Below, in pieces: positions 20,101 to 56,500 of a stretch of 64,000 nt of DNA (position 1 is its first letter; each line of letters starts with the position of its first letter). The stretch covers positions 22,874,501 through 22,938,500 of the forward strand of contig NC_092672.1 of NCBI RefSeq assembly GCF_964355755.1, written 5' to 3'. Position numbers and translations under genes: made by a program. This DNA is from Antedon mediterranea. Taxonomy: Eukaryota > Echinodermata > Crinoidea > Comatulida > Antedonidae. The notes beneath the pieces are model-generated. The model was not told the DNA's origin and searched no databases. It was given only the letters and a program-made list of their open reading frames with translations.

Positions 20101-23100
20101 ATCGCGCTCATTGTGATAAATTTCTGTTTTTATTTTTGGGGTTAGTGTAGCCTACTCTGTACACACAAATATGTCACACGAATAAAATATTGAACCTCTA
20201 AAAAAAGGGCACCCTTAAAATTTAGAGGGGGGGGGGGTCCGGACCCCGTGGACCCCACCTCTGGATCCGCCCCAGCATATTGGAATCTGAACTTGCACAC
20301 TTATAGGCGAGTCATTCTACCATCAATTATAACTACATTTTTTAGCATAAATAACACATTTAATACAATACTACTATTCATTATCATGACTAAATACAAC
20401 AATTGATTATCTTAATTTATGATATAGTATTACAACGTACCTGGAAACGAATAACTGATAATTTAATTAGTATAGCAACTGCCTCTACTCAGCCACAATG
20501 GATATGCCCAATCTGTACCCACGTGCGGGGAAATGGAAATATATGTTTTTAAACAAAACTGTGTGAGCTATTATTTTAGGCCTAAATTTTTATGTTATCT
20601 GAGATTAACAAAAACATACAAGTATTAACTAACACTGACACACAAGCTAATTTTCCCACAAAAAATATAAACGTCGTAGTGGTGTATCGTTACATGTACT
20701 TTACTATTTCAGTCGACTATGACAGTGACAGTTTTAACAAAGTATTAAATCGCAAATGTTCTACTCTATTTAGTGACACTATTCTATTCTATTCATGACA
20801 CAAAATACATGAATAAGGTCCAATGTGAATGGCATAATAAAACAGTGTATCCTAGTGTTAAAAGAATAGTTTATTTAATAAAAACTAACTTTAAAATCTG
20901 TATTGCATAAATTGTACGTGATACTGTTTTTGTTATTATAACTAATATGTTTATTTTGCATAGATACACAGACTGCTACTCCTCTGTCTACAAGCTCATT
21001 AGAGACAGGTTAGTGGTTATCATTAGATCATTATGTATCATATGGACAGTTTGTCTGAAAATACATGAATATAATAGCATAACATCTTGGTGTCATTAGC
21101 AGAATAGTTGATTTAATACTGGTATTCTTGATTATGACTAATGTATATGTTTATTTTGCATAGATGCACCTATTGCTGCTCCTTTGGCTGCAAGCTCATT
21201 AGGGACAGGTATAGGTGAGTAACATTAGATCATTAGGGACAGGTATAGGTGAGTAACATTAGATCATTAGGGACAGGTATAGGTGAGTAACATTAGATCA
21301 TTAGGGACAGGTATAGGTGAGTAACATTAGATCATTAGGGACAGGTATAGGTGAGTAACATTAGATCATTAGGGACAGGTATAGGTGAGTAACATTAGAT
21401 CATTAGGGACAGGTATAGGTGAGTAACATTAGATCATTAGGGACAGGTATAGGTGAGTAACATTAGATCATTAGGGACAGGTATAGGTGAGTAACATTAG
21501 ATCATTAGGGACAGGTATAGGTGAGTAACATTAGATCATTAGGGACAGCTATAGGTGAGTAACATTAGATCATTAGGGACAGGTATAGGTGAGTAACATT
21601 AGATCATTAGGGACAGATATAGGTGAGTAACATTAGATCATTAGGGCAGTGTTACAACCACTTATGTAGTACCAGCTATAATAAAAACTACTGCTAAGAG
21701 AGAAACAATAAAGATAACATATCATTTATTTCATTTGAACAAATACAAACATGAAAACAGAACAAATGTAAATCAATGAGGCAGGATTACCTAAAATAAC
21801 AGTCAAGAAGCAAAAATAAGACATTCAAACATATTTAAAACATAATTAAAAACACATTTTTTGGAAGAAAGTTAAAATTGCTTTATATGAATGACAAGAT
21901 AGTTTAAATTGTATGAAGTTAAATGTATTACAGCAAAATCCACCACAGGTTAGCTAATTCCTCAAAATAATCAAAGCCGAACAAATCAGAATGGAACCGT
22001 GCTCATATTTCTTCTCACTTTCAGAAACATAGAATTATCAACATTATTTTCTTTGATATTATTAATTTGAATACTATAATAACAATTTTCAAATAGTAGG
22101 CAAAACTTTTCTACATAGGAAAGGTGGTCAAAATAATAACTAAAAAATCCTTGAAAACAGATTGTGTGTATACACTGATCATTTGAAATATATTAAGTCA
22201 AATTTATGAATATTATGAAAACACTTTTATTTATTATTAATTTTAATTCAAAAGTTGAGGCCTTAAAATTATACAAAAAAATATGGAAACCGTCATCATT
22301 AATTACTGGTTTGGCTTTAAATTATTTTCCATATCAAGCCCAACTGTGTTAACATAGAGCCTGATTTATTCCTTTTCTCAATGCAACTAAACAAAAGGAA
22401 ACAGGCTTATGATTAATATGGTGACTTTTAGTCATTAACAATAATTCTTTATTACAGAAACAAGTCCAAATTCACTGAAAGACAAGTTAAACAAGTTAAA
22501 TTATGATCTCAGTGAAGTCTTTATGAAGAATAAGAGAAAATTCTTATTTTTGAGATGTTGTCTCTTTGATGAAGTAGATTTACAAGTCCTTGGCAATAAA
22601 GATTACAAAGCAAATGATTATTTTAATGAACTCGCTGATAAAGGAAAGATCAAACCAACCGACGTCAACCTTCTGCTTGAAGTGGCAACACTATCAGAAA
22701 TTAAACATGCTAAAGATCTTGTAAAACAGTATATGAATGACAACAATGTACACATTAGTAATCAACAGAAGTTGTCCCCATATAGAAAAAGATTGTGTAA
22801 GGCATTGGAACAGTTTATCCCAAGTGAGTTGAATAGAGTTACAGCTTATTATCAATTGGAACAACCAACCATTTGGGATGTAACATTTTATTTAGAGAGC
22901 AAATCCAGATTGGTAGATGAATCAGAAAGAGAGAAGTTTGCTGAGCTGCTTGGACCAATCCCAAATAAAATAATGTGTAAGTCAATTTGAGAGATTTCTT
23001 ACCTTAAATCCACAGATTGTAGGTCACGTATATTCTCCCACAATAACTGGCATCAAACCAGAATTTTTAGAAAAGGGTAAAAATATATTGAGAATACATT

Positions 23101-24653: not shown

Positions 24654-24860
24654 TTTAGCTGATAGCTGGCAGCATGCAGCAGAACATCAACTACCTACAA
24701 TGGTCAAGGCATTAACACAACAGGGATGTGTTGATATAGCTGATAGCTGACAGCATGCAGCAGCACATCAACTACCTACAATGATCAAGGCATTAACACA
24801 ACAGGCTTTAAAATAACAGGGACATGTTGATTTAGCTGATATTCATTGTTTATTTTGATT
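24617..24860. repeat. ~80-bp repeat carrying the death-domain C-terminal coding sequence
   Basis: About three degenerate tandem copies of a unit around atcaactacctacaatg, gcattaacacaacagg and gtgttgatttagctgatag. The middle copy reads openly as WQHAAEHQLPTMVKALTQQG then VDIADS-stop, which fits the last two helices of a death domain. The first copy is truncated, out of frame with the exon before it, and carries TAG instead of CAG. The true gene end is therefore uncertain. Confidence 0.65.
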
Positions 24861-25079
24861 TCTTGACACATGAAACTGAGTGCCAATGCTATATAGTGTG
24901 CATCATTAGTATTATCATCAATATTATGATTATCAATATTATTATTATGATTAAAAGGGGCGCTTGATATATAATATAATATAACACAGTAACAATGGGG
25001 ATTATAAAACCACACTTCTAAAATAATTTTAAATATTAACTGGTGCGTGTGATTAAAGTTGTGTACTCTCTATACCAAA

Positions 25080-25260
25080 AACAAGATCAGCAATGCATCT
25101 TGGGGTTTATAGTGGGCCGCTAAAATTTAAACAATTATTAGAATCGCATTTTAATCCGTTTAAAGATGACCAAGGGTATCTCAATAGGACCGTATAGAAT
25201 TTATTTTTACATTAAATGTAGTTTGTGACCTTAGATTAGATCTAAAAAACGTAGGGAAAG
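25080..25260 (+). repeat. dispersed repeat, partner of 10.33-10.53 kb
   Basis: Matches the reverse complement of 10330-10530 with scattered substitutions. No coding potential. Confidence 0.65.
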
Positions 25261-25514
25261 GGACTTTAATGTAATTGACTGTTGTAGGACTTTCTGTAAC
25301 TGCAGTTTTTTTGTATATAAGATGAGTCTTAGTAATTCGTGCTTTGGTGGCTATGGCTAGTTTTAGTGGCTATGGCTAGTTTTAGTGGCTATGGCTAGTT
25401 TTAGTGGCGTACATGGTAAACCCACTGTGTATTGATTAGCAAAAACATTAACATTCAGAATTAAATAGTCAAGATTTAAATGTTTCATTGGTATAGCTTT
25501 ATTCAATATCTTTA

Positions 25515-26215
25515 GTCGCGTGGACGCGACTCTATAGTTCACTATGTCGGTCGGTTGGTCGATCTGTCTGTCTGTCGGTCTGTCTGTCGGTCCGGTATCA
25601 CTATGCGTTTTATCGCTTTCTGACCTTATCTTGATATCAGTTTAATCTAGCTAGGTCAATTTTTCACAGTATATTCCTTATGGCCAGGAATCGATGTGGT
25701 TATGTTTTCACGGTGCGCAATAAAAAATTACGCGGTCTACGCACGATTTAACGAAATCACGTTTGTAATCATATCTTCACAACCATGAATCACAATTAAA
25801 TAAAATTTGGTACTCATAAATTTCAGGGCATAAATCATCATATGGCAATACAAATACGTGCGTAGCGCATGCGTACGCGCGCTTAAAATTTTCAAAATTT
25901 ATTTTCGATGAAATAAGAGTACGTTTCAGGCAATTTTAAGCGTTTACAAAATTGCCATGAGTGCGCATATTTTTGCGCGCGCTCTGCGCGTTAAATGTTA
26001 TTGCGCACTCTTTTTGCCCGATTTCTGTTTTCTTGACTTACTTTTCAACTCGAAATCACGTTATACGAGCACATCAACAGTGACAGGCTACGCACGTGTA
26101 AATTAAAAAAATATAATGTTTTTAAACATTTCTAAACATGTTCAGTAATTTCGGTCAGTATAGTTCACTGTGTCGGTCGGTCTGTCTGTCTGTCTGTCTG
26201 TCGGTCTGTCTGTTT
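25515..26215 (+). mobile_element. ~0.7-kb dispersed element with hairpin end and GTCTGTC tracts, copy 1
   Basis: Opens with the self-complementary hairpin gtcgcg-tgga-cgcgac, then a (gtcggtctgtc)n tract, a ~550-bp body rich in gcgcgc/acgcg motifs, and a second gtctgtc tract. A reverse-oriented copy is at 47966-48701 with high identity through the body. Confidence 0.85.
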
Positions 26216-28544
26216 TAAACTTATCTTGTAAAGATAAAGTAAAATGTTGGTGTTTTATGTATTAATCACTGCCGATGATTTAGAAAGGTTTAATAAGCTC
26301 TCTAAACAAACTTGCTAACAGTACATTTACTAAAGCCAAATTAGTAGAGTTAGAGTTACTGCATAAATACATATTTCATATTCTATTTTATTAAATGATA
26401 TACAATCTTTTTTGTATTGTATTTTTGTTTTCTTTTAAATCTCAACGCGAGTCACAAGTAAACTCATTATATAATGTTAAGATAAATTGGTTGGTTTCAG
26501 CATAGGCAATTGACTATGGTACCAAAATAATAAATGATGTTTGATATTATTTTGGTATCTCTGAATTTAGTAAATGATTTGGCTATTGACTTGCCTAATG
26601 CAAATGAGATCATTTGTAGAAATTAGACTTACAGAATTTGATTAATGGCCAATATCACCTTTATATGATTGACAGACTTACTAAACAGGACGAAAGGTAT
26701 GGAGATGGGATCATTCACTGTATAACAGCAATTATATAAATATCTACCATATTTTCGACCCCTGGTGTGTAATTTTTCAATATAAAATTGACTAATGGTT
26801 GCCAAGGTATGGGACATATTTTTAGTATAGTATCATTATGTCTATAATTATATTTTGTATTAGAAAACTTTTGTCTAATTTTTATTTTGTTTACTTGCAT
26901 GTTTGTGGAAATACAATTTTTTTTAAAGAATAAAAAACCTGACATAGTTCATATTTTGATACACCACCTGATTATGCAAATTACATTCTCTTTTGGTTGG
27001 CATAGCTTAATAGTGTTTATCCTTAAAATTCAGGAAAGTGGCATAGCCTATCGTGTGCGGCCCATCAATAAACATCAGTGTGCCAAATGTGAGCATGTAC
27101 CGTTCAGTGGTTTTGGAGGAGATATGTAAAATACGCGAACAATTTAGTAGCATTTAATATATAGATTGCTTTATACATTGATACCAAAAATTATGAGCAT
27201 GGAAAACTGCACTTACAGATATTTGTGTCCCTACCCCAAAATTGTCCAAAACTGTGGAGATGATTGGAATAATTAGAAATGCGTTAAAATCCCACCTTTC
27301 ATATTCCGTTATGGTAATTACTTTATTCCATTTACTATTATTTACTAATTTGATTTTAGGTACTTTTTGTTTTTGTTCAGGCACTTTCAACACAAGCTTT
27401 TGCTTTTTAGAAATGGTGCCTCCTTCATGATATTGTTTTATTCATTTTAAAGATGAGAAAAAAAATTGTATTGTTTTAACTATCTTTCTTCATGAATTTT
27501 GTATTATATTATTTATTTTGTATATTATGAAGGAATTAAATGTTACTATGAAAAAAATATGTAATGTATGATTTTTGTGTTCACTGGATATAGATGACAA
27601 AATATGTACGTAGTGTAGACCTCTCATATCCCATGTACTGTATTTTGTTGCTTGTAACCCGTTTTTCCCTTCACTTCTTCAATGCTCAAACTTGTGGCCA
27701 TGTCAAGAACTTAATCACAAGATGATTCCTGATTCTTGTTAATCTTCCTCTGGCCAACAGAATAGACCACTTTCATTACTCTAGTGTGCAAGGCTATCAA
27801 ACAACTTGATAGCCTTGGTCTGTGTCCCTTCTTTAAAGTTGTCTTTTCTATAAATATATTGGGTTGGATGGAACAACTCAGTCACAATGTACTTCATCGA
27901 AGTGAAAATCTAAATTTGTGAACTATGATCTAATCGGATGCTATAAAGGATATTACTTTTATAATTTACAGTCCCTTTCTTTTTTATGCAAAAAAATAGA
28001 ATAAAAGAATACTAAAATCAAACATTGAAAAGTCATTTTGTAGTTTTAATCAGGTTATTTAAAAAATAATGATTTAGCTTATAAAAAATAAAAACCCATT
28101 GAATTTCAAACAATGGGCTTCCAGTTTACTACTTTAAAAAAAAATTTTATTAGGTTAAATAATTTTTCGTTTCCATCAATTTTTTTGTCAAACTAGTGTA
28201 ACATTCAAAAATAAAAAAAATATGTGGTGATCATTTAAGCATTTGACCTTTAACATTGTATCTACAGAAGAAAGCACAGATAAAATGTTATTTTAAAGCT
28301 TTAAGGCCACATTTATATTTGTACCTAATACATTCTTATTCAAAATACTCAAGTTTAAGATATAAAATAATTGTATATAGTGTATTAATTGACCTAGACT
28401 CTAAAGGCAAAATTAAATTAGTTATTCTAAATTTTAAGAATAATGTTTGTATGTGTTTCTTTCATTCTTTACAAAAACTTAGTGGTTAAAGAGAAAATTA
28501 GGGAAAAGTTTTCAAATGGCAGCCATTTTGAATTTATGGAAAAC

Positions 28545-29692: not shown

Positions 29693-29694
29693 GA

Positions 29695-32595: not shown

Positions 32596-35500
32596 CTGGT
32601 AAAAATAAATGTTAAATTGTATTAAATTGTATCAAGAAAAAAAAAATTAGATTAAAAATCATAAACTGAATGTTTATGATTTGAATACGGAGAATATTTC
32701 ATGAAAATTAACTGATTGACCATTTAATGAGGCGGAACCAAGCACAGGCAGTCTCTCAGTAAATGAAATATACTCTATTCAACATTATTAGTTTTATAGC
32801 ACAGTACATATGATGATGTGTTAATTTAACATTAAAGTAAGTACCTGTAAATGAGGATGTGTTAGTGATGAAGGAACATACTTCACATTGTAAAGTTTGT
32901 TGGTGCAGCGAAGATTGAAAATTGCGAGTTTTAAGTAAAGGCCTACCTCGTCTGAATTCAATTCATTTAATTGTTCATCTAACTTGCGTTGGTGTAAACG
33001 AATTGAATATCCAATCATAGCATACTGTATGACACGTGCTGCCTCATGTCGTCTCTTTACATCTTCTCTCACCTTCCAGCCTCTAAAACCTACAACATAT
33101 CAATTCTAATTAGTGACAATTAGTGGCTTGGTTTGGTAACAGCATGATGCCTGCAAGATATTTGTCAAAACACAATTACAATCAATACCTGCTTGAATGA
33201 TGACAACAGCTGCCTCTTGTTTACTTTTGGTTGCCAGGATCTTCCTCCACCATATCTGGATTACACCAGCACTTAAATTGAATTCCTTCAATCTTGCAAC
33301 TTCAAGTTTATCCAACTAAATGAAAAATAACGGAATATAATAAATATACAATGATGCAGATTCTTACTTATTTTTTTACACTGACAAGCTAAAAACAAAA
33401 AGCTAAAAGTATTATAATTTTGTGCTACAACTTTTTCATAATTACACACATTTAACTGGGTAATAATTTTTAATAAAATGGTATTTTTTAAATTGTGTCA
33501 AATTAATTGTTCTTTTCTTTTTTATATTTATATACTTTTTTTAAAAAGAAAAATGCCTCAATTTTACATAAATATTTAGTCAATTATGGTGAATTTCCTA
33601 TCTTATGCTACAAAAATATTCCTTTAGCACTACTTTTAAAAATAAAGGTTTATTTTACGACACTCATTCAGCTCTACTACAAAGGTTTATATTATACAGA
33701 TATTGCCTACTTAGAGGTGAAAACCCCGAGGGAATGATATTTTTCTAAGGAACTAAATATTACATCTGTTATATTAAAATATGTAGCAAAGTTTAAGTAG
33801 ACTTGGCTGGGTCGGCTAGCCTAAGTAATAAGACTGCCTAGTTCACCTTACCTTGCCTAAGTAATAAGACTGCCTAGTTCACATTACCTTGCCTAAGTAA
33901 TAAGACTGCCTAGTTCACCTTACCTTGCCTAAGTAATAAGACTGCCTAGTTCACCTTACCTTGCCTAAGTAATAAGACTGCCTAGTTCACCTTACCTTGC
34001 CTAAGTAATAAGACTGCCTAGTTCACCTTACCTTGCCTAAGTAACAAGACTGCCTAGTTCACCTTACCTTGCCTAAGTAATAAGACTGCCTAGTTCACCT
34101 TACCTTGCCTAAGTAATAAGACTGCCTAGTTCACCTTACCTTGGCGAAAAATGACCGTATAAAGTCAAATAATTGCTAATGATTCCTTTGCCATAAAATA
34201 TTCACTTAAATTAATTAAAATGTAATTTATTCTACTGCAAATATAAAATAATTAAATTATTACTAAACTACTTTTAAGTACCTGTCCCTCTCTTAGGAAT
34301 ATCTTTGTTTTTCCAAACAAAAAGCTTTTCATTTTATTTTCTTTGTCTGCTTCAGCTAAAACCAGATTCGTAATAACAGCACATTTACTTTTAATATCCA
34401 AATCTTTGATATCTTCTGAGTTTGACCTTATTAATAATTCATACCTCTTAAGAAAATCACTGTAAAACATTCTATAAGAAAATTGTCATTATTGTTCAGA
34501 ATCAAGTATAACAAACAACACACTGGCAAGTATGTTAGTAGGTGTTTAACATGTACAGTATACACAGGGATATATATAGTATATATTATAAACAACACAC
34601 TGGCAAGTATGTTAGTAGGTGTTCAACATGTACAGTATACACAGGGATATATATAGTATATATTATAAACATCACACTGGCAAGTATGTTAGTAGGTGTT
34701 TAACATGTACAGTATGCACAGCGATATATATAGTATATATTATAAACAACACACTGGCAAGTATGTTAGTAGGTGTTCAACATGTACAGTATGTACAGGG
34801 ATATATATAGTATATATTATAAACAACACACTGGCAAGTATGTTAGTAGGTGTTCAACATGTAAAGTATGTACAGGGATATATATAGTATATATTATAAA
34901 CATCACACTGGCAAGTATGTTAGTAGGTGTTCAACATGTAAAGTATGTACAGGGATATATAGTATATATTATAAACAACACACTGGCAAGTATGTTAGTA
35001 GGTGTTCAACATGTACAGTATGTACAGGGATATATATAGTATATATTATAAACATCACACTGGCAAGTATGTTAGTAGGTGTTCAACATGTACAGTATGC
35101 ACAGGGATATATATAGTATATATTATAAACAACACACTGGCAAGTATGTTAGTAGGTGTTCAACATGTACAGTATGTACAGGGATATATATAGTATATAT
35201 TATAAACAACACACAGGCAAGTATGTTAGTAGGTGTTCAACATGTACAGTATGCACAGGGATATATATAGTATATATTATAAACAACACACTGGCAAGTA
35301 TGTTAGTAGGTGTTCAACATGTACAGTATGCACAGGGATATATATAGTATATATTATAAACAACACACAGGCAAGTATGTTAGTAGGTGTTCAACATGTA
35401 CAGTATGCACAGGGATATATATAGTATATATTATAAACAACACACTGGCAAGTATAGTAGGTGTTCAACATGTACAGTATGCACAGGGATATATATAGTA

Positions 35501-38500
35501 TATATTATAAACAACACACTGGCAAGTATGTTAGTAGGTGTTCAACATGTACAGTATGCACAGGGATATATATAGTATATATTATAAACATCACACTGGC
35601 AAGTATGTTAGTAGGTGTTCAACATGTACAGTATGCACAGGGATATATATAGTATATATTATAAACAACACACAGGCAAGTATGTTAGTAGGTGTTCAAC
35701 ATGTACAGTATGCACAGGGATATATATAGTATATATTATAAACAACACACAGGCAAGTATGTTAGTAGGTGTTCAACATGTACAGTATGCACAGGGATAT
35801 ATATAGTATATATTATAAACAACACACTGGCAAGTATGTTAGTAGGTGTTCAACATGTACAGTATGCACAGGGATATATATAGTATATATTATAAACAAC
35901 ACACAGGCAAGTATGTTAGTAGGTGTTCAACATGTACAGTATGCACAGGGATATATATAGTATATATTATAAACAACACACAGGCAAGTATGTTAGTAGG
36001 GGTTCAACATGTACAGTATGTACAGGGATATATATAGTATATATTATAAACATCACAGGCACAGAATAAATTCTATATCGCCCGGTGATATACTGAAATT
36101 CAATTTATTAATTTGAAACGATGAAGATGAGGAAATCTGTGAGAATGAGAAAAAGTCGCCTCCATCAAGATTCAAACCCGGAACCTTCTGCTTGATGTCC
36201 TAACCATTAGACCACTGGGGCTTTCATGGTATTGTTCAAACTCGATTGGATCGTCGTGGTACGGCGGTATAGCACTAGTCCCTCAGTTGTACGCACACGC
36301 ATCAGAGATCAAATTGATACGCCCTCATCTTTCAGTATATATATACATATATATATAAATCCAAAGGCAAATTACTGAACAAAATGACAATGCTGTGGGT
36401 ATCAGTGGCTGGATCTCAATGGAGATACGAAAATAAAAAGCGAAAAGCTAAATCAAAACGATAAAGTAAACAGCCGCCAGAAAAGTTAGCAGAGCTTTCG
36501 GGCAACACTAGCCCTTCATCAGTGCAATACCTATATATATATATATATATATATTGTAAGTCCTAGAGCAAGCTGTTTAATTGGGATTTTAATAGTAAAA
36601 AATACAGTAAAATACAAATTACAACAAATAAGAAGGTTGTAACATGTTTAGTGCAACCTATAAAACAATACAACAAAACCATTTTAGTTTTTGCTTAATT
36701 ATTCAATATCGAAAACAAACAGGTGTAAGCTGACCTGGTAGGGAAGCCTGTTGCACTGATCTCAATTGTTTCAAGAACACCGCAAGCACGTAGTTGATTT
36801 ATAACATGAACGTTATCAAAGCTGTCTGGTTGACACTCAAGACTTGGTTTGATACAGCGGATGTAGTGAGGTGTTGTTTCATGTAAAGTAGCCATAAGAC
36901 TGTCCAATGAATTCTAAGATATAAGATACAATTGTTAGATTGTTACCCCGAAGATTACATGTAAAAACTAAATGGTATCAACCAAAATAAGTATAAGTAA
37001 ATACAAAATGGATTGAGGAAATATGTCTGATAATCAAAAAATAAAATATCTTGCATATATTTATTATTATAAGTTACATTTTCAACAGAAGTTTAAAAAC
37101 AATTGGGAAGCAATAATTTGAGTGATCTTGCAGATGTTTATTTGATTTATTTCAGCGTCATAAAAAACAATTTACAGATAAAATACAATTAATATAATAT
37201 ACAGGAAACAAAATATGAAACATCAACAATATACAAAAACAGGGATGCCGAGGAAAACCCATAAAAGTCCTTGTTTCCCTGTTTCTCCTTTCAAGAAAAA
37301 GCAAAAACAACAACAAAGCAAAAAAACCTATCTAAATTCTAAAGCAAGAGCTCAGTCTTGAAGCTATTTTTCCATACTAAATTCATCAAGAGTCTAAATT
37401 AAGTTTTGAATGAGTTTCAACTTTCAGGATTCTGTACCTTAAATTTTGATACCACTGTAGTAGTCTTTTTTCCTTTTGTTTTACTTGGACTCTGAAAAAA
37501 ATTCATAAAATTAACCTATTTTAGGTTAAACAGAACTATTAACATAACTGATGCAAAGGCATTATAAATATCACACATTTATTCTTTGTTTAAAAGTTTC
37601 ATGATGTAACATCAGGGCCGTAGCCAGGATCTGTCAAGGGGGGTTCGGACACTAAATATTTGGGTCAACCCCCCCCCCCCCTCCCCTGGGGGTGGGGCCT
37701 GATGCGAAGCGAATTTTGTTAAATGACACCCCTAGACGGGCGGAAAAGACACTCTCGTGCAGCATGCTACCAATGAGAAAAAAGATCGTACTTTTTTCCT
37801 CCTTCTCAAACACGTCGATAATTTAAAGGACGATAACTATTTGTTGCCGTATGTTAGATGCGCGTGCTCTGTGCGGAACCGCCGATTGTTTGATCATTTA
37901 CTCCGTATTTTGTTTTGCGTTCAAGTTCAATGCGAACGTACATCTAGGAGCAGCCCCGAAAAAAACACACTGGTTGAAGGCAAATGCTATTTGCTAGCTC
38001 TATCTATAATATTTATTTACAGCAATTTGTTGAGGAATATAAATATTTAAATAGGTGATATTGATACATTTTAGTACGTATCGGCTGGTGGTCTAGAAAA
38101 AAATACTCGGATGCCATAATGTGAACTACAGTACTTGATACCATAGATATTATAGTGTAAAATATTAATATTCACTATAATCCTCTATGATACATTATAC
38201 TTCATAGTCACACATAAATACTGATGTACGTCGGAAGGCTACTTTATGCATGCTGCCTGACTGCCAGTGATCTAAACAATTATAGGTACGCAGTTGTCTG
38301 GCGGTGTCCTTTGTACGAATCGTTCGTGCCCCAGTTCGCTATGAGACGCGTCAATATCATGTTACATGCAGGGACCAAACATTTATTTTTCAGGTTAAAA
38401 TCGGCAATTCATTTGCAGCTTTTAGAAATTTACAGACACGTATCGCTAGTTGACGCTCATACAGAGAAGAAGGTTCACGAACAAGTTTACGAATTTTTCA

Positions 38501-41500
38501 ATTTACAAACAACTTTTTGTACTGTGGGGCACGTATTTGGAGGATTTTTGGAGATGAGGGTGAGGTATTGGGCATGTCGGGGATGGGGGTTCGCAGTCGG
38601 TTAAGGGGGTTCGCTGTAAAGGGGGGGGGGTTCGCCCGAACCATAAAAACCCCCCCTGGCTACGGGCCTGAACATTGATGAAGACAGAACTTTAAAAGCA
38701 ATGGTGTAGTGTTAGTACAGTGTTACTACAGTGTTAGTATGGTGTTAGTATGGTGTTACTACAGTGTTAGTATGGTGTTACTACATTGTTAGTATGGTGT
38801 TACTACATTGTTAGTATGGTGTTACTACAGTGTTAGTATGGTGTTACTACAGTGTTAGTATGGTGTTACTACAGTGTTAGTATGGTGTTACTACAGTGTT
38901 AGTATGGTGTTACTACATTGTTAGTATGGTGTTACTACATTGTTAGTATGGTGTTACTACATTGTTAGTATGGTGTTACTACATTGTTAGTATGGTGTTA
39001 CTACATTGTTAGTATGGTGTTACTACATTGTTAGTATGGTGTTACTACATTGTTAGTATGGTGTTACTACATTGTTAGTATGGTGTTACTACATTGTTAG
39101 TATGGTGTTACTACATTGTTAGTATGGTGTTACTACATTGTTAGTATGGTGTTACTACATTGTTAGTATGGTGTTACTACATTGTTAGTATGGTGTTACT
39201 ACATTGTTAGTATGGTGTTACTACATTGTTAGTATGGTGTTACTACATTGTTAGTATGGTGTTACTACATTGTTAGTATGGTGTTACTACAGTGTTAGTA
39301 TGGTGTTACTACAGTGTTAGTATGGTGTTACTACATTGTTAGTAAGGTGTTACTACATTGTTAGTATGGTGTTACTACATTGTTAGTATGGTGTTACTAC
39401 AGTGTTAGTTTGATGTTACTATGGTGTTACTACATTGTTAGTATGGTGTTAGTATAGTGTTACTATGGTGTTTAAAAACAAATGATAAGATCAATCACCT
39501 GTAAACTGGTAACATTAGCATCAACTAATTGTTGCACAAACTTCTTGCTGCTAATTTTAAGCAAATCTACAAGTTCTGCTGGAATACCATCCTAAAAACA
39601 TCAAATGATACACAATAGATTAATTAGTAAATGAACATTCACCTGTGTACACTGCACATCAAATCTAATGAGCAAATATAATGTAAATAGCAATAAGGTT
39701 TCCATTCAAAGTAAATATTATAGGGATACTCGGAAAAAAAGCCATGGTAATAGGGCAGGAGGGCAAGTTGGTAAATTGATTGTTCGTTAACTTGATGAAA
39801 TTGTAATATTGGAGAGCATAGTGGTTAAATAGGTTGAAACACTCTTGTCGTTTTCTAAATTGAATTGTGTTAGTGAACCAATTCTTATTTTGATATAAAA
39901 ACAGAGAAATGTAATACTGTAAGCTGAGCACGTACTCCAGACTGAAAAAAGATGGCAGCCGTAAATGTGTTCAAAAACATTATTTAACATAACAAATAAT
40001 AATCTAATATAATACATTCACATATTCTTGTCAAAGAACAGTGAAGATTTATAAATCGCAATGGAATGAATAAATTCTAGGTAATCTAGCATTTTTGTAT
40101 TTGAGGATCATATAGAATGCGTTCACGGTTATACGCTTAACACGCTGCATTGTGTATTGTTCTCACGCAGATAGGCTCAACACAGGCATATAGCAGTGCG
40201 TACTGCGTAGGGCATATCTGATTGGTCGATTGAAAGCCGCTATTTTGTTGGTTCCCTCTCCATAGAGAATCACCTTTTGAACTGCGATAACAGAGCATAA
40301 TAATAGATAGAGCATTACCTATAGCTACAAACAGCCATTCATACATTTTACTGTGGTATTTATTTTCAGTTATAAGATTATGAGAAATGAGTTTAAACGA
40401 AGCAGATGCACTATTCCATAATTGTAATGCTTTGAGAAACTATTTATGAACTTCTAACCCCATTTTTTTGTGAATATACTGTAAAACTGGCATTCAGTTG
40501 TAAGTATATTACCTTATTCTTTTCAATTAGACCATCCACTTGGTACGTAACTTTCTCTGCATAGTGATGCACAACAAAAGCTGGTGATGTCACTGATATA
40601 TGTGCACGAGATAAGCTTGCACTGCTGATGGTGTCAAGAAGAAACTCACAAAATGAACTTGGATCTGAATGTCTGTTTAACTTGCATTGCTATAAACAAG
40701 ATAAACTTGCAATTAGAAAGTAAATGACATAATAACATGATTGTGATCTTAGATCTTAGATGGACAGTCTAAGCACAACAACTTGTAGTTTGCAACTGGT
40801 TGTGGTGTTACTGTACTTTTGCACCTAACTCACTGGGCATAAGGTCACTCACCATCACTGATGTGCAGCAGGTGAATATTGGGGTTAAGCTTGAGGTGCA
40901 AAAGTACATCAGCAGCAGGTTTTCTAGTGTAAACTAGGCTCAAAAGTCCATTATTTATCTTCTTACAAACTACAGTTTATTTATTGATTTGGGCAATCAA
41001 GACAAACTATGGTTTTCAAGACAAACTATGCCTGTCGGGTAAAAACCACTTTTTTTCAAAATGTAAAATTCAAAATAGGAAGGAGTTATTATTTTACGAC
41101 ATACTGTACTACGATTGAGAAAGGCGAATTCTTAATACAGCACTGGGACAACTCATCTTTTTGTTGTCATACATGCAGCATGGTTTCATGGTACAGCAGT
41201 TTATCTTTCAATAATAAGTACAAACTACAGAATACAGGTTGTCTTTTTCAACCATTATTTTTCGTCTTGCGAAAAACTATGACTTAGAAACTTATTGTTT
41301 GTATTTTAATCGAAAGACAAACTACAACACCCCAATATTCAACATCAAAACATGTTTTATTGTGAGGGGAATAGCAACACTTACTTGATTCATGAGAACA
41401 AATATACTGATGTTGCCTTCAATAACATCAAGACATGTTTTATTGTGAGTGGAATAGGAACACTTACTTGATTCATGAGAGCAAATATACTGATGTTGCC

Positions 41501-44500
41501 TTCAATAACATCAAGACATGTTTTATTGTCAGTAAAGTCTTCAAATTGCCATGGAATTCCCTCAGATTGACAGTCATCCTAAAATAATATAAAGATGACT
41601 ATTTAATCAGCAGTATGATTATGTTTATAAAGGTTCATCATTATCACTATTAGATAAAAAAAGTGAAAGATAATTCTCATAAACTTTAATTATTATTGTT
41701 ATCTTAATTATCATTTTATATTGTATTATAATTATACTAGTATTTTGATATTATTAAGTTTTTACCAGATTTGTTTGATATCAACTAAAAGAAGTGCCAT
41801 ATTATTTTTCTCCATTTTTTTTAATGAATAAAAGAACTGTTGTTATTATCACTCTTATATGGTGCTAATGAAACACTGTTGCACCAACTGTATATTGGCA
41901 TACTCTATATATAGAAAATAAGTTTGTTGGAATACCTGTTCTACTTTGAGGAAGTTGTGCACAAAATGTTGCTGAAGTTTCTCATTTGCATAATTTATGC
42001 ATAATTGCTCCAAACTGTTAAATGAAAAACTTTCAAATCCGTAGACATCCAGTAGACCAATGTAAGACTGGCAACTCCTGGCCATGGTACAGCCATTGAT
42101 GAATCCAACGAGCCAATCAAAAACTCTGAAACATTAAAACATAATTTAGTCAGTCTTCAAAGCTAGTTTTTTTTGGTAAAACCAAAGTGGGGTTGAAAAA
42201 GTTTGCATGTAAACATTTTCTCCTGTTACATACTAACTACATGACAAAGAAAGAAATTAGGCAGAAAGAAGTCAGGCCATGACAGCAAGAGAGATTAGGC
42301 AGAATAAAAATGAAATTAAATTGACTATGTTTCAGAGTTTGCATGTAAAGTATGGTTATTTTATTTTTGTGAATGTTTAAAGGTGTATGTACGATTTGTT
42401 GTGGGTAATCCACCTCAGTGCAGACCAGCATGCATATGGGGAAGCAAATAAAAGTTATTGGATATGTACAACATCTTCTGTGGGTTTGTTTTGAATGTAT
42501 AACAGGTCAGTAAAAAGGCAAATACTGCACAACAAGATCATTTTCAAAAGAGTAAGTAGGTTTCTTTAACTACAAACAAATATAGCTTTAATGTTTGTAA
42601 AATACCTGGCATAGAGTAACTTTGCAAGACAATCTCTCCTTGTATGACATTCATCTTTTAAGCAAGGTTTCATAAAGACAATCTTTCTACGCTTGTGAGA
42701 TGCAGTGATTTGTCGGAATGCAAGACATCTAGTTAAGGCATCAACATCAAGACCAAGTAACTGTGCAGCAGCATTAACAGATGTGTCAACTCCTGATGAA
42801 GCAACATCAATAGTACAACAATATGATATATTGAATAATTAGTAAATTAGAAAATCTCTCTTAGGCTGAAATATTTTATCAACATTTTTTGAAGATGGAG
42901 AAGAATATTAATAAGATTATTTAAGATTTTAAAATTATGTAATTATTAACGATATTATTTAAGATATTTTGTGACCAACCTACCATAACATTAAGGTATT
43001 CCTTATGTCCGTTTTTAGTTATGTCTCATATATTATATTATGGTAGAAATAAAAACAAATTAAAAAATACTAAAAAGATATATATACTGTTGATAGAATA
43101 TTTTGAATCATAAGTAAACGTCAATTTATTATAAACATAATCTATTAAAACTTAAAGGTTGCAACTACTTTAAGCTAAACTATAAATACTGTATGCAATC
43201 TTAAAGGTCGCAACTACTTTAAGCTAAACTATAAATACTGTATGCAATCTTAAAGGTTGCAACTACTTTAAGCTAAACTATAAATACTGTATGCAATCTT
43301 AATGGTCGCAACTACTTTAAGCTAAACTATAAATACTGTATGCAATCTTAAAGGTTGCAACTACTTTAAGCTGAACTATAAATACTGTATGCAATCTTAA
43401 AGGTCGCAACTACTTTAAGCTGAACTATAAATACTGTATGCAATCTTAAACGTCACAACTACTTTAAGCTAAACTATAAATACTGTATGCAATCTTAAAG
43501 GTTGCAACTACTTTAAGCTGAACTATAAATACTGTATGCAATCTTAAAGGTTGCAACTACTTTAAGCTGAACTATAAATACTGTATGCAATCTTAAACGT
43601 CGCAACTACTTTAAGCTAAACTATAAATACTGTATGCAATCTTAAAGGTTGCAACTACTTTAAGCTGAACTATAAATACTGTATGCAATCTTAAACGTCG
43701 CAACTACTTTAAGCTAAACTATAAATACTGTATGCAATCTTAAAGGTTGCAACTACTTTAAGCTGAACTATAAATACTGTATGCAATCTTAAAGGTTGCA
43801 ACTACTTTAAGCTGAACTATAAATACTTTATGCAATCTTAAACGTCGCAACTACTTTAAGCTAAACTATAAATACTGTATGCAAACTTAAAGATCGCAAC
43901 TACTTTAAGCTAAACTATAAATACTGTATGCAATCTTAAAGGTTGCAACTACTTTAAGCTAAACTATAAATACTGTATGCAATCTTAAAGGTCGCAACTA
44001 CTTTAAGCTAAACTATAAATACTGTATGCAATCTTAAAGGTCGCAACTACTTTAAGCTAAACTATAAAAACTGTATGCAATCTTAAAGGTTGCAACTACT
44101 TTAAGCTAAACTATAAATACTGTATGCAATCTTAAAGGTCGCAACTACTTTAAGCTAAACTATAAATACTGTATGCAATCTTAAAGGTTGCAACTACTTT
44201 AAGCTAAACTATAAATACTGTATGCAATCTTTTTATTGGTATAATACAGAAAATAATTAAACAGCATAACCTTTATATCATTTACCTTGTTTTTCAGAAT
44301 CAATTTCACATGGTCCAGTGACATCATCACTAATAAACTCTATATTTCCAAGATGAAGTATACCACTTAGAACCTACAAATAAACACATTTTCAAATTCA
44401 ATTCAAAAATTCAAAAAATAGAATTATAACATTACTATTAGATTTATGTATAAAAAACATCAAAGTCTATTATCACTTATTTATATACTACCATTTGATT

Positions 44501-47500
44501 TTCATTACCATAAATTTGTAAAAGTTGTTTTGAATCAATATACTATCATAATTGTAAAAACTAGGTAAAAGTTCACTGATGTTTACTGTCCACATGTGCT
44601 GGATTAGTTCAACCAAGGCATCTAAACACGGTTCAGTTAGTTCACTGATGTTTACTGTCCACATGTGCTGGATTAGTTCAACCAAGGCATCTAAACACGG
44701 TTCAGTTAGTTCAATAATGTTTACTGTCCTCATGTGCTGGATTAGTTCAACCAAGGCATCTAAACACATTGCTTTGGTTCAGTTAGTTCACTGATGTTTA
44801 CTGTCCACATGTGCTGGATTAGTTCAACCAAGGCATCTAAACACATTGCTTTGGTTCAGTTAGTTCACTGATGTTTACTGTCCACATGTGCTGGATTAGT
44901 TCAACCAAGGCATCTAAACACATTGCTTTGGTTCAGTTAGTTCACTGATGTTTACTGTCCACATGTGCTGGATTAGTTCAACCAAGGCATCTAAACACAT
45001 TGCTTTGGTTCAGTTACTAATAATATCACCACTAAGTTTAACCATGTTTTACCAGTTAATTCACTCTTCCCTTGTAAAACAATGTTTGTTAAGTAACCAG
45101 TTCTAATTAAGTAAAAGTTTCTTACTTTAAATAATTCTTGTTGCTGTGACCTGCTAAGTCCAACATTAGACATTGCTTACTAACTAATTAAGTAAAAGTT
45201 TCTTACTTTAAATAATTCTTGTTGCTGTGACCTGCTAAGTCCAACATTAGACATCGCTTACTAACTAATGAAGTAAAAGTTTCTTACTTTAAATAATTCT
45301 TGTTGCTTTGACCTGCTAAGTCCAACATTAGACATCGCTTACTAACTAATGAAGTAAAAGTTTCTTACTTTGAATAATTCTTGTTGCTGTGACCTGCTAA
45401 GTCCAACATTAGAAATTTCTTACTAACTAATTAAGTAAAAGTTTCTTACTTTAAATAATTCTTGTTGCTGTGACCTGCTAAGTCCAACATTACACATTGC
45501 TTGCTTTGTAACTATAAAATCTTGTTTATCCTTTTGATTACCTGCATCTTCTGAACGGTTTAGTTTCACATAGTTTAAGTTGTCTGAACTCAATACATTT
45601 GGTAGTAACCAGTTCCTCATTTCCCTTTCATTTGCGCCAAACAGCATCTATGATAATTTGAAAGAAGAAATGTTAATGATATTATTAAAAAGACTAATAA
45701 TGAGAATAATATAAACTAATAATATATTTCATGCTTTGATAACATTAGTAGAGTGAGTGCTTTCTTGCGCTATATTACAAAATGACAATTTTGTTTCAAG
45801 ATGTTTAATATCAGTACCAGAAAGATCCTTTTCACATCTGCCTACATTGATCTCCAGACTTATTACATGTTTTCATATTTACTAACGAACCTTGTGAAAT
45901 CACGGGAAAAGTATTGTCATTGTATAGTTGACGGTGCTATCATTAGTACAATCTCAAGTTTGTGAGAAAAAAAAAGTCACGCTTCGATACTTTCAAACAG
46001 GTGTACGGTCAGTTAAATACCAGGACAAAGCACAAATGCGCAGAACAAACAAAAAAACAGGCCCCTGTGAATATCAGTAGAATTTTAACAACCTGATTAA
46101 AACCAAAGGGTATATGTTTGCTATTAGCCTACTCACTTTAGAAACATGGCAACAGAAATATGCAAATGTATCACAGTTTCCAGCAGTTAAGTTAAACAGT
46201 TGGTTATCCGGTTTAAAGGTACACAGAAATGAAACATAACTAATACTAACTTGGTAAAAGATGTGAAAATTCCTGGCACCATCACATTGATAAACAACTC
46301 TAGTTTTCTCAAGAAGATATGTCTGAATAGAAGCACCAACAACATGATTTCCACTGAAAACAAAATTGGAAAGTTAAAATAAGAATTCCTCTTGTGTGTA
46401 ATTTCATTCTTCCCTGCTATGACACACAAAATGGCATATGTAGAAACTCAAAATGCATGGCCTGTATACAGTATGTTGGTTGAACATTGACAAATAAAAA
46501 TAATGTATGAAACTTACCGACTGAATTGTAGCTGAATGTACTTTCCAAAGCGGCTACTATTGTGATTCCTGGTTGTGCTAGCATTGCCTAAGAACATGAA
46601 ATAATAGTTGTCTAACAGAGATGGAGTTGTAGGGAGGTGTAGGGTACTGGGTGGCAAAAGATTAATATTACTGTGTATATATGAATACTGGTGCAGGCCA
46701 TCAATTTCAATTAATTCTACTAGTCTTAATGATACCAAATCTGCCAAACAATTTGAGCATAAAATCTCACCAAATTCATATTTAGAACATACTGTAAGTT
46801 GGCCACTGCTCATCAACAGTTTTAGCCTATATATTATAATAGGAGTTTAAAGGATTTTGGCACCATGACTGAAGGTTAAAGATTATGCTAGAATTACAAA
46901 ATGTAAAATCAGTACACAAACTGCTTTAAATTAGCATTTAAAATTTCATTTTACATAAAGCGTTAATCAATTTTAGGTTAGGTGTAGCTTTATTTATTTA
47001 TTTTTAAATCAGTATGATATTTATTGACTTTTATATTTCAGTTTTCTTAGGGAAGAGTTAAATTACAATTTAATTTAACTCTTCCCTCGTTTTCTTGTAA
47101 TTTTAATGGTACCCTATCATTATGCTCATTTTTATTTGGTTCTCATCTCTTTATCGACTGTTCTTATTCTATTTTCTTCTTTATCTGTTGATGATAATGA
47201 TGATGAATATAGAAAATTTGATATATTGATATGATTTAAAAATGCTGATTTTGTATATTTAACAAAAATAAAGGTCCAACTTCTAGCGATCTTTATTAGG
47301 ACCATAACAGTACATAGATGTTTTTACATTTGAGAATGACATGTGTATCTTACTGTACTTTATTAAAGATAAACATAATAATTACCAAATGCTTCAAGAA
47401 TAGGATTTGAGTCTAATATTCTACGTTCAATGCAATCTGCTGGTGATGGTGTAAAACCACTATGAACAAAAAAGACAACAAGTTATCACAAATAAGTAAC

Positions 47501-50500: not shown

Positions 50501-53500
50501 TTCTGTCTTTTAAAATAAAGGTGATAGATTCCATTAAATGGATCTTCTCCTCCAGGTGCCAGTATAATGATATAAAACAATGACACATCATTATCCTGAC
50601 ACGATTGCACTCATAATGGATCTTCATTCTATCATCTATTTGTTTGTAACTACAATTTGACAACAATCTTTTGCATAGTTTTAAATGCCAATACATAGTT
50701 TCATTACTATTGTACAATATGTCCAGCTTTCCTGAAAACACCCTTGTGTACTGTAGTACAGTGTTGTAGTATGATTTTATCATGATAAACTTCTGATGCT
50801 TTTATTGTCAATGCATTCAGTACCTATAAACATGTCAAAGTTTCTAGTGGTATTGATAATAAATCTCCAGAAATATATATTGTTTTATTATCTACACTGG
50901 GAACAGACATGTATGTATAAGTGTTGTCGTTGACATTCAAAACTATTATGCAACAGTGTTACGTAATAATGACAATGACTTGGTTTATTATTGTGGTCTC
51001 CGATACCTTTTATTACATGATTGTACTTCCTCCAGGATAGAATGAGGTTTAATCCCGTTATTATTCTTATTATATATATATATTTTTTTTATATATATAT
51101 CTGGGGTGTATTTATTTGATTATACATGTTACCATTATTACACCCAACAAAATAAACACCTTCCCTGAATAAATAAATGCTAGAGGATTTTATTCGGGTA
51201 ACTACAGTAAATAACTTCTAGCATTCTCAAAATGTTTGAACGTTAGGGGGTCAACAATACTTTCTAGCATTATTATAAGCAAAAGTACAATTATTACAAA
51301 CAGTAAAGGATTTGTTTTAATTCCTACAGTATAATGAAATCATTAAGCATCAATTATTGCATAACATTACTGTCTAATGATAAGTTAGGTAGATATGTTT
51401 TTCATTTAAAAGATTAGTAATTAATAGTATTTCTGATCATCTTTTATCCAAATTTTCTGTTAGAATGAATTAAATATGTGTATTTCTAACAATTTGATAC
51501 TAAATTTAAGTTTCTACGACCTGTACTTACAGAGATAAGAAGATGCCCTGGTATGTATGTCAAAGGTCAGAAATGTCATTTCCGGTCATTTTTTACTGAA
51601 TATGAATGTATACCTTCTGAACATTTTGAGACCAAAATTTACTCGCTGTGACCAGTGGTTGCCGAGATACAAATACCTATTTGTGTTTATTCATATAACC
51701 CCTGGCCTTGACCTTTTGTAACATTGTTCAAAATGTGTAACAAATAACTAAATGTATATTTCGAACAATTTGAGCCCAAATTCAAGTCACTACGGCCAAT
51801 AGTTACGGAGATACAGACATGCCCTGGTTTATGGGTCAAAGGTCAGAAATGGCATTTCCGGTCATTTTCGACTAAAATGTTTCATTAGACTGAATATAAA
51901 TGTATACCTTCTGATTAATTTAAGACCAAAATTACCTCGCTGTGACCAGTGGTTGTCGAGATTTAAGGACATAATGGTGTTTGATTTTATAACCTATGAC
52001 CCTGACCTTTTGACCTTTCGCCACATTTTCAAAATGTGTAACCAACCCAAAAATGATTGTTTGACCACCCTAAACCAATTTCTGAAGTCAAATTCTCTGG
52101 ACCTCAAAGTGCATACGAAAGTTGATCTAGCTACTAGAGTAATATCTCTAAGTTCTCAACAGAGGAAATAATAATATTTTTGCCCAATATTGAAGATAAA
52201 GTGAAGTCAAGATTTTAATAGTGATGTCATCAACATATCAATTTTCCTAAAAATCAATAGTATACTAGCAAATCATTGTTTACCTTTTGATCACTATGGT
52301 AACGATGAATCATATGAACATCAAAATGTCCAGTTTCTTTGAAAGGATTCAAAGTAACAAGTGTGTTGCCAGTCTGAGTGTGGTATCTACCAGCTAAGTA
52401 CCGTTCACGTAAACAGTTCAGCACTATGAACAGAAAATATTAGGTTAAGTAACAAGTGTGTTGCCAGTCTGAGTGTGGTATCTACCAGCTAAGTACCGCT
52501 CACGTAAACAGTTCAGCACTATGAACAGAAAACATTAGGTCTTAAAAGTAACAAGTGTGTTGCCAGTCTGAGTGTGGTATCTACCAGCTAAGTAGCACTC
52601 ACGTAAACAGTTCAGCACTATGAACAGAAAACATTAGGTTAAGTAACAAGTGTGTTGCCAGTGTGAGTGTGGTATCTACCAGCTAAGTACCGCTCACGTA
52701 AACAGTTCAGCACTATGAACAGAAAACATTAGGTTAAGTAACAAGTGTGTTGCCAGTTTGAGTGTGGTATCTACCAGCTAAGTACCGCTCATGTAAACAG
52801 CTCAGCACTATGAACAGAAAACATTAGGTTAAGTAACCAACGTGTGTTGCCAGTATTTTGTCTAATTTTCTTCAAATTGTCCGCTGTTCTACTCTAAAAA
52901 TGTATTAGTTTATACTGTAATTATAAAATTTTATTTTAAAATGGTCTTTAATTGCAGGGAAATTTGAAGGAAATTGTTCAGTTGGATTCATCCAAATTGT
53001 GGTCTCTGATCTCTAATTAGAGGGAGGCAGCAGCTAATGGTAAAAAATAGGTGATCATCTGGCTTTAAATTAGATTGAGCTTTTAATTAAAGGGGTCTTT
53101 AATAGAAGGAAGACCTGTATAGTACTAACAACCATTGAAACATGTGTCTACTATTAATTCACTTACCAGCAGGTTCTGAGAGAGGATTAAGCAAAACAAG
53201 ATCATCTGTATTGATCCAATCTGTTTGAGTACACAGCACTGGATAGCCAGCATGACCACGTATCACAACCTCCTAGACAATGAAGTTACAAGCAATATTT
53301 AAAATACATTATATAGAATACTTAGTAGCAAGGTTGGGTTGTTGACATAGATGGTATGCTTCCCTCCCCTCCTTACCTCACAATTATATTTTGTGTCTAT
53401 AATCTTGCCATCACTAAAACATGAATCAACACACGCTGGAACCCAAACCTCTTACCTGGCCATTAGATTTAGTCACTATAATCTTGCCATCACTAAAACA

Positions 53501-56500
53501 TGAATCAACACATGCTGGAACCCAAACCTCTTACCTGGCCATTAGATTTAGTGACTATAATCTTGCCATCACTAAAACATGAATTAACACATGCTGGAAC
53601 CCAAACCTCTTACCTGGCCATTCGATTTAGTGACTATAATCTTGCCATCACTAAAACATGAATTAACACACGCTGGAACCCAAACCTCTTACCTGGCCAT
53701 TAGATTTAGTGACTATAATCTTGCCATCACTAAACATGAATTAACACACGCTGGAACCCAAACCTCTTACCTGGCCATTAGATTTAGTCACTATAATCTT
53801 GCCATCACTAAAACATGAATCAACACATGCTGGAACCCAAACCTCTTACCTGGCCATTAGATTTAGTGACTATAATCTTGCCATCACTAAAACATGAATT
53901 AACACATGCTGGAACCCAAACCTCTTACCTGGCCATTCGATTTGTGACTATAATCTTGCCATCACTAAAACATGAATTAACACACGCTGGAACCCAAACC
54001 TCTTACCTGGTCATTAGATTTAGTGACTATAATCTTGCCATCACTAAACATGAATTAACACACGCTGGAACCCAAACCTCTTACCTGGCCATTAGATTTA
54101 GTCACTATAATCTTGCCATCACTAAAACATGAATCAACACACACTGGAACCCAAACCTCTTACCTGGCCATTATATTTAGTGACTGTAATCTTGCCATCA
54201 CTAAAACATGAATTAACACATGCTGGAACCCAAACCTCTTACCTGGTCATTAGATTTAGTGATTATAATCTTGCCATCACTAAAACATGAATCAACACAC
54301 ACTGGAACCCAAACCTCTTACCTGGCCATTAGATTTAGTGACTGTAATCTTGCCATCACTAAAACATGAATTAACACATGCTAGAACCCAAACCTCTTAC
54401 CTGGCCATTAGATTTAGTGACTATAATCTTGCCATCACTAAAACATGAATTAACACACGCTGGAACCCAAACCTCTTACCTGGCCATTAGATTTAGTGAC
54501 TGTAATCTTGCCATTACTAAAACATGAATTAACACACACTGGAACCCAAACCTCTTACCTGGCCATTAGATTTAGTGACTGTAATCTTGCCATCACTAAA
54601 ACATGAATTGACACATGCTCGAACCCAAACTTCTTTTTCATCATGTATCCACACCATTAACCCCTGAAAGTACAGTAAACAGTTCATTATTCAATTCAAT
54701 CAACTTTTATTATCCACAATCTGATTCTTTTGGTTGTGGCAGACTCACAAATGTAAACAAACATTTAAAACAAATGTTTAAAATACACATGTATACAAAT
54801 TATTGCTAAAGAGTAATTTTTGTAAAGTCTAACAGCTTTCATAATAAATTATTCATTTGGAGCTTTGAGGACTAATTAATATGTATTGAAAAGAGGATGT
54901 GTTTAATTTTGAAGGATCTAATAGTAATTATTCTGTATATAATTAAAACCATTCATGAATACGTACATGTGTGACGTTTCAACTTGTTTTTAACAAGTCA
55001 GGCAATGACTATTTGTAATTTGTAATAGTCTGTGATTTTCCGAAGTTCTTTGCCTTTTTAGGGGGCGCTAATCTACAACTAGCAAAGCTACAGTACTCCT
55101 AGCAACTACTAACATCTAGTCAGTTGCCAGATGAAGACTTATTAAAAACAAGTTGAAACGTTGCACATGTACGCATTATTTTTAAACAATCTACTGATTT
55201 AAAGAAGGGCTTACACAGATGGAATTAGTAAATTAACCAGCCAATGTGTGGGGCAACCATTTCATTCCATGTCTTTAATACCCTAATGAATAACTGTGCC
55301 AAGTATCAGAATGTTCACTTCAGGTCTACTAAAGTAGGACTACTATGCATGACAAGTGTCAGAATGTTCACTTCAGGTCTACTAAAGTAGGCCTACTATG
55401 CATGACAAGTGTCAGAATGTTCACTTCAGGTCTACTAAAGTAGGCCTACTATGCATGACAAGTGTCAGAATGTTCACTTCAGGTCTACTAAAGTAGGCCT
55501 ACTATGCATGACAAGTATCAGAATGTTCACTTCAGGTCTACTAAAGTAGGCCTACTATGCATGACAAGTGTCAGAATGTTCACTTCAGGTCTACTAAAGT
55601 AGGCCTACTATGCATGACAAGTGTCAGAATGTTCACTTCAGGTCTACTAAAGTAGGCCTACTATGCATGACAAGTGTCAGAATGTTCACTTCAGGTCTAC
55701 TAAAGTAGGCCTACTATGCATGACAAGTGTCAGAATGTTCACTTCAGGTCTACTAAAGTAGGCCTACTATGCATGACAAGTATCAGAATGTTCACTTCAG
55801 GTCTACTAAAGTAGGCCTACTATGCATGACAAGTGTCAGAATGTTCACTTCAGGTCTACTAAAGTAGGCCTACTATGCATGACAAGTGTCAGAATGTTCA
55901 CTTCAGGTCTAAGTAGGCCTACTATGCATGACAAGTGTCAGAATGTTCACTTCAGGTCTACTAAAGTAGGCCTACTATGCATGACAAGTGTCAGAATGTT
56001 CACTTCAGGTCTACTAAAAGTAGGCCTACTATGCATGACAAGTGTCAGAATGTTCACTTCAGGTCTACTAAAGTAGGCCTACTATGCATGACAAGTGTCA
56101 GAATGTTCACTTCAGGTCTACTAAAGTAGGCCTACTATGCATGACAAGTGTCAGAATGTTCACTTCAGGTCTACTAAAGTAGGCCTACTATGCATGACAA
56201 GTGTCAGAATGTTCACTTCAGGTCTACTAAAGTAGGCCTACTATGCATGACAAGTGTCAGAATGTTCACTTCAGGTCTACTAAAGTAGGCCTACTATGCA
56301 TGACAAGTGTCAGAATGTTCACTTCAGGTCTACTAAAGTAGGCCTACTATGCATGACAAGTGTCAGAATGTTATGCATGACACAGAGAATATCAACAGCA
56401 TTTTCCTTTACCTTTTTAAAACGACATGCTGGTTTCTTTTTAACTTGAGGAGGAATGCATCTAGGCCTAGATTTAGTAATAATCTGAAAAAAAATAGCAA

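Follow-up and report, generated by a model that had tools for sequence, protein, structure and literature searches.

Mirage-type minisatellites at exon edges of a crinoid myosin gene family, probably born by chance duplication over splice junctions

Introduction

Why should tandem repeats lie repeatedly on the edges of exons? The question is raised by a stretch of 64,000 nucleotides from the crinoid Antedon mediterranea (the window; C3:22874501-22938500 of a 354-Mb genome), in which a myosin motor gene on the minus strand (34282-54663) and a probable exon on the plus strand carry arrays made partly of exon and partly of intron sequence. A sequence-only reading of the window had described five such arrays, each with a donor or an acceptor, and had proposed two origins for them, namely intron gain through tandem duplication around AGGT-like sites, or a replication- or transcription-linked process that amplifies splice junctions. 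All five arrays are present, and their location at exon edges is real, with four in the myosin gene and one on the plus strand, the last at an exon that is itself only probable. They are most probably mirage-type minisatellites, born by chance tandem duplication over splice junctions. Mirages are tandem repeats across exon-intron boundaries, described for lancelet Adh3 (Canestro 2002, cited in PMC3087553).

Anatomy of the edge arrays

The myosin gene was mapped as 14 exons, a to n, by Pfam Myosin_head matches and by homology in the form of colinear matches to a myosin Va head. Nearly all 14 motor exons have ordinary splice sites. Exons b and c join in a single open frame and exons d to n in another (exon f with a corrected end), so the donors of exons g and k are fixed by the frame on both sides. 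The gene model has two gaps, one from a to b and one from c to d, where some exons are lacking.

The longest of the myosin arrays lies at the donor of exon a (54559-54663, minus strand, the N-terminal part of the myosin head by homology), where the exon ends in CAG/GTAAGA (slash, exon border). It comprises 16 units of 79 bp (53372-54635, minus strand), each holding the last 73 nt of exon a and 6 nt of intron (GTAAGA). The functional copy is the one at the high-coordinate end, and 14 further identical donor 9-mers follow downstream. At exon b (52284-52423, minus strand, by homology) it is the acceptor that is repeated, in 5.2 units of 95 bp (52348-52854, minus strand) that hold ~23 nt of intron, the acceptor TTCATAG and the first 72 nt of the exon; here the functional copy is at the low-coordinate end, and four decoy acceptors identical over 12 nt precede the exon.

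The array at exon g (45103-45505, minus strand) has 4.9 units of 81 bp with the last ~55 nt of the exon, the donor AAA/GTAAGA and ~26 nt of intron, and in the unit an AG precedes the exon piece. It had been taken, at 45115-45505, for an array of a whole exon; it is the 3' edge of a 198-nt exon (45450-45647, minus strand, by homology). At exon k (41468-41578, minus strand, by homology), 2.3 units of 83 bp (41341-41533, minus strand) hold the last 66 nt of the exon, the donor CAA/GTAAGT and 17 nt of intron; the seed is ACTG, present at both the exon end and the intron end of the unit. Identical donors that act as potential decoys number four after exon g and one after exon k.

The plus-strand array (21196-21646) has 13.3 units of 34 bp, each with the last 13 nt of a probable exon and 21 nt of intron, if the donor is ACAG/GT. 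This probable exon of 45 nt (21164-21208, plus strand, donor ACAG/GTATAG) is supported by a sister exon ~200 bp upstream (20964-21008) and by paralogs; a known protein matching its gene was not found. The seed of the 34-bp unit is TCATTAGGG, with one occurrence in the exon and a second in the intron at a distance of 34 nt. The border of the repeat had been said to coincide with the exon border in each array, and this is not the case, as every unit straddles the exon border. That the reading frame fixes the exon border holds for the four myosin arrays, through the myosin frame and homology, and not for the 34-bp array, whose exon is only probable.

Two further arrays were considered and set aside. 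An array of 36-bp units (33816-34143, minus strand) with a donor-like AAG/GTAAGG lies at no supported exon edge, since exon n has its own donor and stops at 34282, ~140 bp short of the array. No supportable exon edge was found in the array at 15358-15857.

Copy-number states among paralogs

At least 19 copies of the myosin gene lie on C3:19.6-25.1 Mb (~5.5 Mb), and counted by exon, at least 19 loci were found for each of exons j, g and k and at least 20 for exon b. Eight paralogs, P1 to P8, in which the motor region was covered partly or for the most part, were compared with the window copy, W, together with short pieces of other loci. The exon-a unit occurs twice in P1, six times in P5 and 15-17 times in W, P3, P6, P7 and P8 (in P4 the array lies outside the covered part). 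In P2, which has 3.6 units, a deletion has removed the exon-a acceptor and the first 60 nt, and has joined the upstream intron to an array copy. Several acceptor copies are found at exon b in seven of the nine genes (W, P1-P8). The acceptor used by the others is lost in P1 and P2, whose exon b looks as if its body had been fused to a defective leading copy of the kind seen in P3, P5, P6 and P7.

Exon g has 2 to 5 copies of its edge across the same nine genes. The donor of exon m (36735-36913, minus strand, CAG/GTCAGC) is single in the window and is arrayed in paralogs only, which makes it a fifth edge of this gene; there is one donor in W, two in P1 and P7 and at least three in P3 and P5, at a spacing of ~128 bp. 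This series consists of the five copies that reach exon m, as the pieces of P2, P4, P6 and P8 end earlier and the arrays of P3 and P5 reach the end of the piece.

The fullest series was obtained for exon k, for which 19 loci were compared. Ten have a single edge with no copy, four have a single edge with, at a distance of 83 nt, a partial copy of 27 nt, and five are arrayed, with 2.3 copies in W, L029 and L030, three in P6 and 8.3 in P4; identical decoy donors accordingly number two in P6 and seven in P4. The copies in P6 carry exon variants of the P6 clade, in which the other 10 members examined have no array. The P6 array therefore probably arose separately, which would give two origins with near-identical joining positions in exon and intron; conversion between loci is an alternative to a separate origin.

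The 34-bp unit was compared at 10 short loci, where it is present once in six, twice in one, three times in one and not at all in two more distant ones. As a separate observation, overlapping matches to the 34-bp donor unit extend over ~4 kb at C3:24728335-24732325, compared with 13 copies in the window. Some of the myosin gene copies are apparently broken; besides the losses in P1 and P2, exon a has length changes at L060 and L061, and exon k is interrupted by a stop codon in L036.

A route from chance duplication to decoy sites

The starting points for a mechanism are observations: the anatomy of the arrays, the series of copy numbers, the unarrayed states, the identity of the decoys and the stops that follow those tested. 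Short matches of a few bases flanking a splice junction would seed a chance tandem duplication, by which the exon edge would be carried into the intron along with its splice site. With two copies in place, the array could grow or shrink by unequal exchange or slippage. Duplications that fell within exons would presumably be purged by selection; those that straddled an edge could survive if splicing kept to the copy adjoining the exon body and the remainder thereby stayed intronic. Existing introns would be lengthened in this way and decoy splice sites would be added to them.

The decoys bear on the splicing step. In W, the use of a decoy leads to an in-frame stop in every case tested, namely the first three donors after exon a, the first three after exon g, the one after exon k and the four acceptors before exon b; exon m has none in the window. 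If the gene works, splicing would have to select the exon-attached site among identical rivals and bypass the decoys.

Placement of the arrays relative to chance

Whether exon edges are hit more often than chance was assessed by relocating array units. Arrays with a unit of at least 20 were called by Tandem Repeats Finder (TRF) and self-BLAST, in the same way for the window and for other loci, and each unit was relocated randomly within its own stretch with the array length collapsed; the score was the number of units covering a known exon edge. Minority-strand exon matches, splice sites that were weak and very low-complexity units were excluded from the count, and the relocation null retains units that lie wholly within exons. 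The other loci were sampled as 11 stretches of one protein family, with 167 kb and 161 edges; two of them, J and K, have only one and three exon matches and are probably one gene. Their edges were placed by homology together with a simple score for splice sites, with the result that some are wrong or missing. Self-BLAST was added as TRF by itself called neither of the two edge duplications in these loci. One of the two is a diverged donor copy, 80% alike (L011:3814-4038), and the other an acceptor copy, 95% alike, with a unit of ~203 bp (L016:664-1075). Two exon pairs, with 71% and 75% likeness, were not counted as arrays, being probable mutually exclusive exons.

In the other myosin loci, 2 of 46 arrays lie at an edge against 2.4 expected (p=0.70), and with units of at least 30 the count is 2 of 18 against 1.7 (p=0.51); no excess was found at any of four unit cut-offs (p 0.33-0.70). 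General targeting of exon edges is not seen in these loci. Several counts tell against a purely chance placement. The window gene, which was chosen for showing the pattern, has 4 of 12 arrays at an edge against 1.8 expected (p=0.08), or 4 of 9 against 1.5 with units of at least 30 (p=0.04), and p lies between 0.02 and 0.08 across the unit cut-offs. With the two arrays found only in paralogs added, the figures become 5 of 14 against 2.1 (p=0.04), 5 of 11 against 1.8 for units of at least 30 (p=0.02) and 5 of 8 against 1.5 for units of at least 60 (p=0.006). Pooling of all loci gives 7 of 60 against 4.5 (p=0.14), 7 of 29 against 3.4 for units of at least 30 (p=0.04) and 7 of 18 against 2.7 for units of at least 60 (p=0.01). 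Some local preference for splice junctions is therefore possible. Compared with shuffled intervals, the overlap of arrays with exon edges is in modest excess in the ascertained gene and not in the other myosin loci sampled.

Alternative origins

These counts are also the main evidence on a replication- or transcription-linked process that favours the amplification of splice junctions. The nominal excess at larger units in the window gene, with or without the paralog-only arrays, and in the pooled set would be expected of such a process, as would the probable repeated origin at exon k, which keeps a local hot spot possible. It is set against the other loci taken alone and the pooled set at units of at least 20, which give no excess, and against the ascertainment of the window gene; a filter that removes duplications within exons also mimics targeting. 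Such a process is unlikely as the origin of the arrays, and the suggestion of it in the sequence-only reading is left unsupported.

Intron gain under way, through tandem duplication of AGGT-bearing exon sequence, would fit units that hold exon sequence together with splice signals, and the 81-bp unit has an AG ahead of its exon piece. The route has a documented case in potato RdRp (PMC4974935), and PMC3087553 suggests it for globins of lancelets. The AGGT motif that had been noted at the junctions is present in the units of exons a and m and in the 34-bp unit, and is absent from g (AAAGT; donor AAA/GTAAGA) and k (CAAGT; donor CAA/GTAAGT). Introns lie at the same place in unarrayed copies, at exon k in 14 of the 19 loci, at exon m in the window and at the probable exon of the 34-bp array in 6 of the 10 short loci. 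As intron and donor already exist there without an array, existing introns have only been lengthened, and ongoing gain of introns is very improbable.

Retention of the arrays because the decoy sites act, for example by lowering or regulating correct splicing, would accord with donors that are mostly identical across many units; young, homogenised arrays retain their sites without selection, copy number varies widely among close paralogs and the tested decoys lead to stops, all of which makes a function for the decoys hard to credit. Assembly error is scarcely credible as the source of the arrays. Long arrays within near-identical paralogs are hard to assemble, but across many loci the copy numbers are graded, the variants differ from copy to copy and the flanks are distinct, unlike the result of a single collapse or inflation.

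Variation of the coding edge

On the chance-duplication reading, the functional edge is itself the end of an array, so another copy may occasionally take its place through contraction or conversion. Such a swap would bring in amino acid changes or destroy the splice site. Variable sites are more frequent in the arrayed part of the five exons (28 of 312) than in the rest of the same exons (17 of 421; Fisher p=0.005) or in other exon sequence (57 of 1424; p=0.0005), in counts in which the sites are linked, the exons differ, most copies of exon k have no array, and P1 and P2 were left out for exon b. By exon, the arrayed part exceeds the rest in a (8/77 vs 0/28), b (6/72 vs 2/68), k (9/66 vs 4/45) and m (2/41 vs 3/138), but not in g (3/56 vs 8/142).

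In exon a, 8 of 17 loci carry a linked set of variants, six are of another type, one is a mosaic and two have 2-nt length changes in the arrayed part. The linked set replaces R by P, T by I and S by Y, along with silent changes, and its variants are common among array copies; several array copies equal the whole set except for one further difference. In exon b, the edge of P5 equals an array type. In exon g, one variant of P8 is common to the functional edge and the first array copy. These haplotypes would allow an occasional capture of the coding edge from the array.

Other features of the haplotypes, and the splicing step, speak against the proposed reading. The exon-a types largely track a marker in the upstream intron, and two old gene lineages with exchange can also explain much of the exon-a haplotypes without capture from an array; the direction of sharing may also be reversed, with the array copies derived from such an exon. 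The exon-b edges of W, P3, P4, P6, P7 and P8 stay distinct, and in the window and seven paralogs the variants typical of the array are lacking from the functional edge of exon g (the P2 row is an array copy and was excluded from this comparison). Splicing as proposed is predicted from genomic sequence. We therefore put forward only tentatively, as a possibility, that the intronic array is an unselected reservoir, in which neutral mutations would build up and from which they might be installed in the protein through contraction or conversion. If so, the arrayed part of an exon would evolve in linked jumps, at a cost of lost splice sites, deletions and frameshifts.

Other features of the window

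The G+C content of the window is mostly 30-37%. In the genome as a whole, a let-7 match above its cut-off points to a bilaterian animal; the best bantam match (E 0.69) fell below its cut-off and mir-2 gave no match, which would fit a non-protostome, although a miss in these searches does not prove that the genes are lacking. Both of its ends are large arrays, at 1-4419 and 61021-64000, with units of 89 bp and 74 bp. An open reading frame (ORF) for a reverse transcriptase (RVT_1) at 16104-16937 on the minus strand is likely to be a retroelement fragment. On the plus strand, a 15-bp repeat in 14 copies lies inside an open frame at 13563-13937 and would give a repeated peptide if coding. A death-effector-like reading of the ORF at 22445-22987 was unsupported.

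Comparison with known systems

The boundary arrays appear to belong to a known phenomenon, as they share the features of lancelet mirages that genomic sequence can address. Tandem units span the boundary and include the splice site (a, b, g and k, with m in paralogs), either boundary can be duplicated (donors at a, g, k and m, an acceptor at b), and length instability is seen as differences in copy number between paralogs. For the lancelet globins BflGb6 and BflGb9, PMC3087553 describes minisatellite-like duplications of intron-exon boundaries, which take the name mirages from Adh3; many of the copies hold splice signals, two haplotypes have six and three units, and RT-PCR (reverse transcription polymerase chain reaction) suggests regular splicing. 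PMC3902484 adds lancelet PGBD5 and cites troponin C as mirages. Somatic instability is reported at the Adh3 mirage. In the accounts given there, the lancelet and crinoid arrays are alike in units of exon edge, splice site and intron at a donor or an acceptor, in variable copy number, in unit lengths of tens to ~160 bp, in splice signals in many copies and in array ends unlike the inner copies. They differ in that the crinoid gene has several arrays, spread across at least 19 paralogs with unarrayed states; one of its donors has as many as 17 copies, and at another locus the 34-bp units fill ~4 kb.

Engineered competition between duplicated splice sites was reportedly tested by Reed and Maniatis in 1986. 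Their constructs and the present gene are alike in placing identical competing sites in one transcript, and differ in that the present case is natural, with up to 15 identical donors.

Tandem duplication over an intron-exon boundary has also been modelled as a source of introns (Rogers 1989 and Zhuo 2007, cited in PMC3087553), and PMC4974935 reports intron gain by this route in potato RdRp. Duplication across the boundary is common to both situations; here existing introns grow and no new intron is seen. The arrays bear on such models in that they need not yield new introns. In PMC2812944, minisatellites at exon-intron boundaries are described in human duplicated genes, and these internal tandem repeats of segmental duplications resemble the crinoid arrays in that minisatellites change in recent paralogs, some of them at exon-intron boundaries. 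As described in that source, about half of the human repeats lie in coding sequence, and new introns were proposed with transcript support. Beyond the lancelet cases as described in these sources, the crinoid family offers a staged natural series from the unarrayed junction to many copies, in which one can ask how an array starts, whether up to fourteen identical decoy donors can be ignored by the spliceosome and whether a coding edge can be rewritten from an intronic array. Its added value over the known systems is this series, together with haplotypes that would fit an occasional replacement of the functional coding edge by a copy from the array.

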